Assembly (NCBI GenBank): GCA_905480645.1
Contig: CAJQRC010000003.1
Span: 62,001 to 126,000, forward strand
Origin: an uncultured Tateyamaria sp.
Lineage (GTDB): Bacteria > Pseudomonadota > Alphaproteobacteria > Rhodobacterales > Rhodobacteraceae
Length of the DNA stretch: 64,000 nt
Direction of reading: 5' to 3'
Under the pieces are notes generated by a model that had not been told where the DNA came from, made no database searches, and worked only from the letters and a program-made list of their open reading frames with translations. The position numbers and the translations under genes were made by a program. Positions 46,408 through 46,639 of the stretch are shown in pieces (positions within the stretch are counted from its first letter, which is position 1; every line of letters starts with the position of its first letter).

Positions 46408-46437
46408 AAAAAAGGGCCACACCTTTCGGTGCAGCCC
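46408..46437 (-). terminator. Intrinsic terminator of the structured RNA
   Basis: Minus strand GGGCTGCACC and GGTGTGGCCC pair fully (one to two G-T pairs) around a GAAA tetraloop and are followed by six T. It closes the transcript that begins near 46600 and lies about 220 bases before arfB, so arfB must use its own promoter. Confidence 0.88.
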
Positions 46438-46513
46438 AATCGAATGGTTTCAGGAGGAAGGGCCAATTCGACTAAATCGCCCTCTCCGAAAGTTCACCCA
46501 CTTAAGGGCTGCC

Positions 46514-46570
46514 TTAGCAGGCGACCTCCAAAGCTATTCCGACACCTCTCTCCAATACCGTTCTTGACAC
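46514..46570 (-). CDS. 18-codon mini-ORF with an exceptionally long Shine-Dalgarno
   Basis: GTG at 46570 opens MSRTVLERGVGIALEVAC and a TAA that falls in the loop of a small hairpin. The ribosome-binding site AAGGAGGTGATCCAG (46570-46584) is complementary over about 15 bases to the 3' end of alphaproteobacterial 16S rRNA, with seven bases between GGAGG and the GTG. Translation is therefore likely, whether or not the peptide has a function. It might be a leader peptide that controls folding of the RNA downstream. No similarity is recognised. Confidence 0.4.
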   Translation of the reverse strand: MSRTVLERGVGIALEVAC

Positions 46571-46639
46571 TGGATCACCTCCTTCCAATTTGTTAAACTC
46601 GCAAGGACAGTTGCACAGATGTAGGGAATGTCAATGCAT

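Follow-up and report, generated by a model that had tools for sequence, protein, structure and literature searches.

A Rhodobacterales relative of the CC2171 RNA with an extended Shine-Dalgarno sequence, an 18-codon frame and a predicted self-closing fold

The minus strand of the window (the whole 64,000-nucleotide stretch of DNA that was analysed, from an uncultured Tateyamaria sp.) carries at about 46.41-46.60 kb an RNA gene of about 190 nt, for which the best explanation, judged from sequence, is that it represents the Rhodobacterales form of an alphaproteobacterial RNA gene related to CC2171 (RF01867). Comparison with its relatives shows, at the sequence level, a conserved Shine-Dalgarno (SD) sequence, start codon, stop codon and frame length, together with a covarying structure and an anti-SD complementary to the SD. 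As to how this RNA may work, we tentatively favour, with a confidence a little short of even, a ribosome-gated and self-closing RNA, in which ribosome loading would race against self-closure. The anatomy proposed for this locus in an earlier note was largely right, with the exception of an exposed loop and of a stop codon placed in a hairpin loop.

Specifically, the RNA gene lies between yhhQ/Vut_1 (PF02592, 46640..47260, minus strand), situated upstream, and arfB (RF-1 domain, PF00472, 45759..46190), found downstream on the same strand, whose proximity had been noticed before. A putative promoter region (46606..46634, minus strand) consists of TTGACA at 46634-46629 with a weak -10 element some 17 nt further; a consensus promoter scan of the window made no call there. 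All 20 loci of the genus, window copy counted, keep TTGAC, which is altered in locus L049 of the family. The 5' untranslated stretch (46585..46600), which bears a class-wide CAAC-type motif, is followed by the extended SD AAGGAGGTGATCCAG (46584-46570, minus strand), a 15-base complement of the 16S 3' tail, as the earlier note had recognised, whose last G doubles as the first base of the start codon. Its 13-mer core AAGGAGGTGATCC (46584-46572) occurs once in the window (1 match with up to one mismatch, against 0.06 expected). The assembly as a whole likewise contains it once, and a 16S copy did not turn up there. The 18-codon mini-ORF described previously (46514..46570, minus strand) runs from GTG at 46570 to TAA at 46516-46514 and encodes the peptide MSRTVLERGVGIALEVAC. 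The start codon is enclosed in the predicted hairpin P2 (46551..46574, arms TCCAGTGTC and GGTATTGGA), and a central multibranch part with P3, P3b, the hairpin after the stop and P4 extends over 46470..46534, consensus limits that are approximate for the window copy. Further downstream, the anti-SD CCUCCU (46452..46457, with CCTCC at 46457-46453) is the complement of AGGAGG at 46583-46578, so that an SD and its complement, in the predicted helix P1, are indeed present in one transcript. The gene ends with a strong intrinsic terminator (46408..46437) of 10 pairs at 46437-46414 and a T-run to 46409 (fold z -5.41), and only 1 of 200 shuffled versions of the full minus-strand RNA equals or betters its fold (z -2.78), in line with the structured RNA and terminator first proposed. 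Other identities were considered and rejected: a 16S fragment, as the plus-strand match stops after CTGGATCACCTCCTT with unrelated sequence beyond; a tRNA or tmRNA, by search; and an Rfam family at the gathering cut-off, with no gathering-level match in the window. A search for plasmid-borne relatives gave no match.

Below the cut-off, cmscan aligned the locus to RF01867 CC2171 over the full model length at 34.5 bits (E 5.4e-6 for 261 bases), short of the gathering cut-off of 75; the next match was sbrA, over the terminator. RF01867 was likewise not found at gathering level in 18 further loci, nine of them from Rhodobacterales. The SD/start block is almost completely matched in the CC2171 alignment, and six of the seven pairs of the CC2171-type closing helix (3' side ACCATTC at 46442..46448, 5' side GAACGGT at 46563-46557, codons 3-5, minus strand) are able to form in the window copy. 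In addition, the window RNA shares with RF01867 the conserved SD/start block with an upstream CAAC-type motif, and an intrinsic terminator at the 3' end, some 170 nt beyond the SD. By its sequence, this RNA is a divergent relative of CC2171, and by the Rfam threshold not a member of the family.

A plain DNA search recovered the RNA in all 19 genomes of the same genus and, among 5 further genomes of the family, in 2, and the Rfam model matched 39 of 190 genomes of the class at E <=0.001, seven above the cut-off and three with a second match; among 14 control genomes, Caulobacter vibrioides alone matched the model. Of 385 genomes of the class, 62 contain the pattern AAGGAGGTGATCCNDTGTC, at one place each (reversed control, 0), and a scan of 398 genomes of the phylum gave 62 matches, every one in Alphaproteobacteria. 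A scan of named genomes returned at least 117 stretches, including four Gemmatimonadota records and a few chance-like matches; the taxa among the matches listed are, as we take the order names to be, Rhodobacterales, Hyphomicrobiales, Sphingomonadales, Caulobacterales, Acetobacteraceae, Rhodospirillaceae and others. What the relatives have in common is a core in which a complement of the 16S 3' tail, 15-17 nt long, leads into a start codon and a short frame, followed by a terminator. The four Gemmatimonadota loci (L090, L124, L143 and L158) have the same layout, with a full SD, a TTG start, TCTAGT or TCCAGT and a frame of 20-22 codons; these frames share GGGCAA(G/A)CG(A/G)(T/C)CGCC, and a G+C-rich inverted repeat lies downstream. 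A deep homolog or a transfer are both possible origins of these copies.

For the comparisons that follow, 198 loci were reduced to 190 by a filter that asked for an A/G/TTG start, no more than one change in the SD and room on both sides, and then to 164 unique loci by merging identical 100-nt keys and dropping L091, L129, L165 and L184, which are chance-like and have frames of 201, 33, at least 274 and 44 codons, respectively. These were assigned by peptide patterns (one of which demands 18 codons), not by a tree, to the groups Rhodo (34), Sphingo (28), SHCH (47), MSS (29) and other (26); L016 and L083 fell in the last and were joined to Rhodo for the 36-row counts. An independent sample was anchored on YhhQ and comprised the best 30 of 114 genomes with YhhQ, out of 120 searched, one per genus. 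A terminator-like hairpin was called in 161 of the 164 unique loci, with no call in 3.

The extracts of two publications that name the family, an Rfam-paper table and a Mesorhizobium survey (PMC11701678, PMC5596092), show the annotation of MH_s33 as CC2171 and, in the MH_s33 paper, RNA-seq products for 34 of 35 predicted non-riboswitch sRNAs, MH_s6 being the sole absentee. A literature search on CC2171/RF01867 found no function for CC2171, a search with the mini-ORF peptide strings found nothing, and a term search of PMC11005374 and PMC5521070 gave nothing on a CC2171-type RNA.

The locus is complementary to 16S rRNA over an extended stretch. In the 164 unique loci the unsearched bases -2 and -1 are G (146/164) and A (147/164), resulting in GAAAGGAGGTGATCC, often GATCCAG; both match CTGGATCACCTCCTTTC of the 16S, and the complementarity hence reaches bases that no search pattern had fixed. 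Base -9, in the 5' untranslated stretch, is A in 139 of 164. The 16S 3' end of the relative L202 reads CTGGATCACCTCCTTTCT, and the search pattern gave no 16S end in seven other genomes, where it is perhaps masked. Pairing with the SD covers the whole single-stranded extent of the 16S 3' tail. The SD:16S duplex amounts to -29.2 kcal/mol in the window and to between -23.4 and -30.5 kcal/mol over all loci, to be compared with a median of -5.2 and a strongest value of -16.1 kcal/mol for 59 mechanical ORFs of at least 120 aa in the window, the starts of which are not curated. The SD is not wholly invariant: several of the 30 YhhQ-anchored loci have one change, and three show GAAAGGAGGTG, followed by CC only.

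A complement of 15-17 nt that passes the CCUCC core into GAUCC fits the 16S better than it fits CCUCC-type sRNAs, and would suit a decoy or sponge that acts by sequestering 30S subunits, or anti-SD sRNAs, on its perfect SD. We nevertheless rate such a function as very unlikely: one can argue that a single RNA gene would need great abundance compared to ribosomes, and that a start codon, a stop codon and a fixed frame length would be needless. According to Schrader et al. (PMC4117421), 75.4% of the coding genes of C. crescentus are without an SD, and therefore a maximal SD is notable in this clade.

We then considered the short frame that follows the SD. With the start codon's first base left free by the search, G occupies it in 59, A in 52, T in 6 and C in none of the 117 named-collection loci among the matches listed, a count from which L052-L081 were left out because their search pattern forbids CTG; the 62 matches of the phylum scan likewise all lack C at this base. 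We count this A/G/TTG alternation, without CTG, as evidence for the frame. The third base of codon 2 varies in the 164 loci (T 112, G 34, A 14, C 4). The frame measures 14-36 codons in 112 of the 117 unfiltered loci among the matches listed and in 162 of the 164 unique loci, where it is never shorter, and lengths in the other two frames range widely, from 0 to 96 or more. In the Rhodobacterales group, which was chosen by peptide pattern, it has exactly 18 codons in 34 of 34 loci, closed by TAG (19), TGA (8) or TAA (7). In the YhhQ-anchored sample the RNA is present in 29 of 30 loci and the frame has 18 codons in 28 of these 29, that of L219 having 20; L223, together with L214 and L216, which the scripts had not picked up, was inspected by eye; all three have different peptides at an unchanged length of 18 codons, a length also kept in loci with a changed SD.

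Single-base codon variants amount to 13 synonymous and 32 nonsynonymous in Rhodobacterales and to 7 and 19 in the Sphingomonadales-like group, values that, counted on no tree, lie near those of no amino-acid selection. Codons 2-12 are well conserved in Rhodobacterales, with 8 synonymous and 11 nonsynonymous variants. Since start, stop and the 18-codon length are kept while the amino acids are near neutral, translation as such seems more important than the peptide, which seems mostly not to matter, codons 2-12 in Rhodobacterales constituting a partial exception. It is precisely this conserved segment, synonymous changes included, which together with a real start and stop would speak for a small-protein gene whose 18-residue peptide acts in the cell; yet the peptides differ between orders, and within the family at equal length, and the overall synonymous fraction is near neutral, which makes this explanation improbable in our estimation. 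Two loci, L055 and L170, have mini-ORFs of 56 and 59 codons that resemble small proteins with a hydrophobic N-terminal segment. The Bradyrhizobium loci L134, L145, L150 and L154, together with L177, have a 14-codon frame ending in KRCHLAGIAR; the 3' part, read in four of them, is a different one. In the Sphingomonadales-like loci (e.g. L103, L122 and L175), codons 2-4, TCT CAT GGT, are nucleotide-invariant in 26 of 26, pointing to a constraint on the RNA rather than on the peptide; a pre-terminator GACCATG can pair with these codons. It should be added that Schrader et al. (PMC4117421), in the portion available, report two earlier C. crescentus ncRNAs as translated without giving their names, and the translation of CC2171 may for this reason already be known.

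The fold was examined on 36 order sequences, the CTCC-anchored alignment of which gave a multibranch structure in which the core of P1 is paired by construction of the anchoring. A plain MAFFT alignment, discarded, misplaced CTCC in several rows, and its RNAalifold fold showed a spurious SD-terminator pairing and no P1. Against shuffles, a control inflated by relatedness, two-sided changes are in excess in P3 (28 cells vs 10.3, reached in 0 of 500 shuffles), P3b (18 vs 9.2, 1/500), P4 (11 vs 5.0, 0/500) and the terminator (24 vs 5.1, 0/500). The hairpin after the stop (9 cells vs 5.5, 37/500) does not clearly stand out, nor does P5 (2 vs 0.8, 83/500). P2 is paired in 98% of its cells, and neither P1 nor P2 has two-sided changes among the 36 sequences because the SD is invariant. 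The conservation and covariation that the earlier note had asked of relatives are present, the former in the genome searches above and the latter in P3, P3b, P4 and the terminator. Its placement of the stop codon in a hairpin loop did not hold: folded alone, the stop is in a stem, and in the consensus it lies just 5' of the small hairpin.

For the CC2171-type closing helix, own partners scored 4.14 and swapped partners 4.01 in the 36 order members, 110 of 1000 swaps being as good. In two of three other groups, codons 3-5 form the best 6-bp pairing of the 5' region with the pre-terminator element (0.88 and 0.78 of cells), and in the third they share first place (0.99), in a scan that had no random control and from which 11/45, 10/29 and 2/27 loci without the anchor motif were left out. 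A duplex test of the initiation region with the pre-terminator element was not significant in any of the five groups (mean z -0.42 to 0.38).

The extended anti-SD motif [AG][CT]CTCC occurs in 33 of 34 Rhodobacterales loci, compared to 5.0 expected, and in 24 of the 26 YhhQ-anchored loci scored by script, the two exceptions being L229 and the window copy, whose anti-SD reads TCCTCC without the extended form. In the other groups it was found in 0/44, 0/29, 7/27 (2.9 expected) and 5/26 (2.1 expected, L016 and L083 included). In the 34 Rhodobacterales RNAs, the predicted probability that the SD core is unpaired averages 0.65 without the last 40 nt and the terminator, 0.11 at full length and 0.33 with the 40 nt shuffled, and the SD is closed (<0.3) in 3, 30 and 16 of the 34, respectively. 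In the window copy, whose anti-SD is weaker than average, openness falls from 0.85 to 0.32 at full length. These folds predict the closing of the RNA by its own 3' end. In three other groups the corresponding values for full and truncated RNA are 0.30/0.30, 0.33/0.24 and 0.40/0.26, the 3' end being predicted to make the SD slightly more accessible in two of them. On these predictions closure is not a class-wide function, because the other orders are without the anti-SD and the 3' end slightly opens the SD in two groups. A side case is L093, with a degenerate usual anti-SD (TTCTCC), a longer ACCTCCTTTC in the middle of the RNA and an SD predicted to be closed already in the truncated RNA.

An anti-SD conserved in this way could also serve a trans-acting sRNA repressing many mRNAs, in the manner of CcsR, the cuckoo-type RNAs and SisA. 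CcsR is an anti-SD sRNA, and the name "cuckoo" designates RNAs of this type. Such motifs are borne in the same class by SisA-D (PMC12559287) and by SmelA075 and SmelA099 (PMC3927594), as far as the extracts of these papers go. In our case, however, the motif is short, is absent in two other groups and only weakly enriched in two more, and is predicted to be paired with the SD of its own RNA. The ten-pair stem thought to expose CCCTTCCTCC was not recovered: CCTCC is paired when the element is folded alone, and in the full-length RNA its main predicted partner is the SD. Nor were any CCUCCUCCC hairpin loops present, the window containing only CCCUUCCUCC and the relatives CACCUCC-like sequences. 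The kinship with CcsR and cuckoo-type RNAs, and an exposed loop acting on many mRNAs, are consequently not supported, and we give this explanation little credence.

With regard to the neighbouring genes, 35 of the 36 order members have yhhQ upstream of the RNA and 33 have arfB downstream of it, each time on the strand of the RNA. Among the YhhQ-anchored loci, one per genus, arfB is the downstream same-strand neighbour in 29 of 30 (one of these without the RNA), and the arrangement yhhQ-RNA-arfB on one strand is found in 28 of 30. The gap between terminator and arfB is at most 71 nt in 20 of 25 measurable loci (at most 41 nt in 15) and 139-831 nt in the other 5. Because these gaps are short, arfB is probably transcribed through the RNA in many genomes; the window, where the gap is 224 nt and holds one weak promoter-like site, may differ. 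A gene of 118 aa (MSPPLSSLVLYTSK...) lies between terminator and arfB in four loci of the order, L004 and L016 among them, about 21 nt from the terminator.

This organisation underlies the best rival explanation, which is compatible with the race model: in Rhodobacterales, RNA and terminator would form a 5' attenuator of arfB, with translation of the mini-ORF, or its failure, setting read-through, and ribosome trouble would raise the rescue factor. It draws on the one-strand order and on the little room that the short gaps leave for a separate promoter. It is weakened, however, by the longer gaps, some with other genes between, by the gap and weak promoter-like site of the window, and by loci in which the two are separated: L227, the only YhhQ-anchored locus of 30 without the RNA, has arfB starting about 76 nt after yhhQ, and L222 has the RNA and no arfB in the stretch examined. 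Moreover, within flanks of limited length, arfB is near the RNA in 1 of 128 loci of the other groups, on the opposite strand, and yhhQ in none. Inspection by eye showed no convincing antiterminator, and a candidate in which GGCAGCCC, located past the stop, pairs with the terminator's 5' arm looked too weak. We regard this attenuator as rather unlikely, and a role as arfB leader possibly forms part of the best reading. A class-wide cis-leader was dropped, as neighbours are shared within groups and, across groups, not beyond single loci.

In the race model that we prefer, the nascent RNA would first expose an SD able to pair with the whole single-stranded 16S 3' tail, and a 30S subunit captured by this SD would lead to translation of the dummy 18-codon frame. 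About 120 nt further on, the polymerase would make the anti-SD just ahead of the terminator. An RNA whose SD had stayed without a ribosome would then close, with the anti-SD on the SD, the start codon in a hairpin and the stop region in the multibranch fold. The race between loading and closure could report initiation capacity; the candidate outputs are arfB read-through, an effect on RNA stability and a pairing in trans. In this picture the promoter is our inference, as are the race itself, the quantity sensed and the output. The earlier suggestion of a self-regulating leader or of a sensing of initiation capacity fits the data. A broader proposal, which we consider unlikely, is a class-wide gauge of free 30S subunits, where the dummy frame would be kept only so that ribosomes compete with refolding for the full 16S-tail SD, and where in Rhodobacterales the 16S-tail mimic would close the gauge and set arfB read-through.

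These findings offer a testable job for an Rfam family for which our literature search found no function, argue that the CC2171-type "noncoding" RNA is translated, and extend the CC2171-type RNA to Rhodobacterales, whose copies fall below the Rfam cut-off. If the gating is true, the RNA, which reproduces the two partners of the SD/anti-SD contact, would allow a bacterium to read its own initiation capacity, perhaps with a connection to ribosome rescue.

Compared with CC2171, the window RNA has the same GAAAGGAGGUGAUCCAGUGUC-like 5' block, short frame, terminator and similar length; it differs in the anti-SD able to pair with the SD, which is added in its order and found in 0 of 44 loci of the CC2171-like group, and in the closing helix of CC2171, which in Rhodobacterales gives no signal above swapped partners. 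With leader-peptide attenuators such as the trp leader it shares a short frame, a structured RNA, a terminator and, in Rhodobacterales, a same-strand downstream gene, whereas here the peptide is not conserved, no regulatory codons were noticed and no downstream gene is shared across orders. CcsR, the cuckoo-type RNAs (SmelA075, SmelA099) and SisA likewise contain an anti-SD sequence; the window RNA, in contrast, does not present it in a CCUCCUCCC loop or in several hairpins each bearing one, its motif is predicted to pair in cis, and it has a strong SD and a mini-ORF. Finally, in Staphylococcus aureus an extended SD is found at an estimated 30% of ordinary start sites, according to the portion of the source available (PMC13009471). 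There, as here, SD pairing extends toward the start codon, but it does so at ordinary start sites, whereas in our case it is one RNA gene that carries the full complement of the 16S tail.
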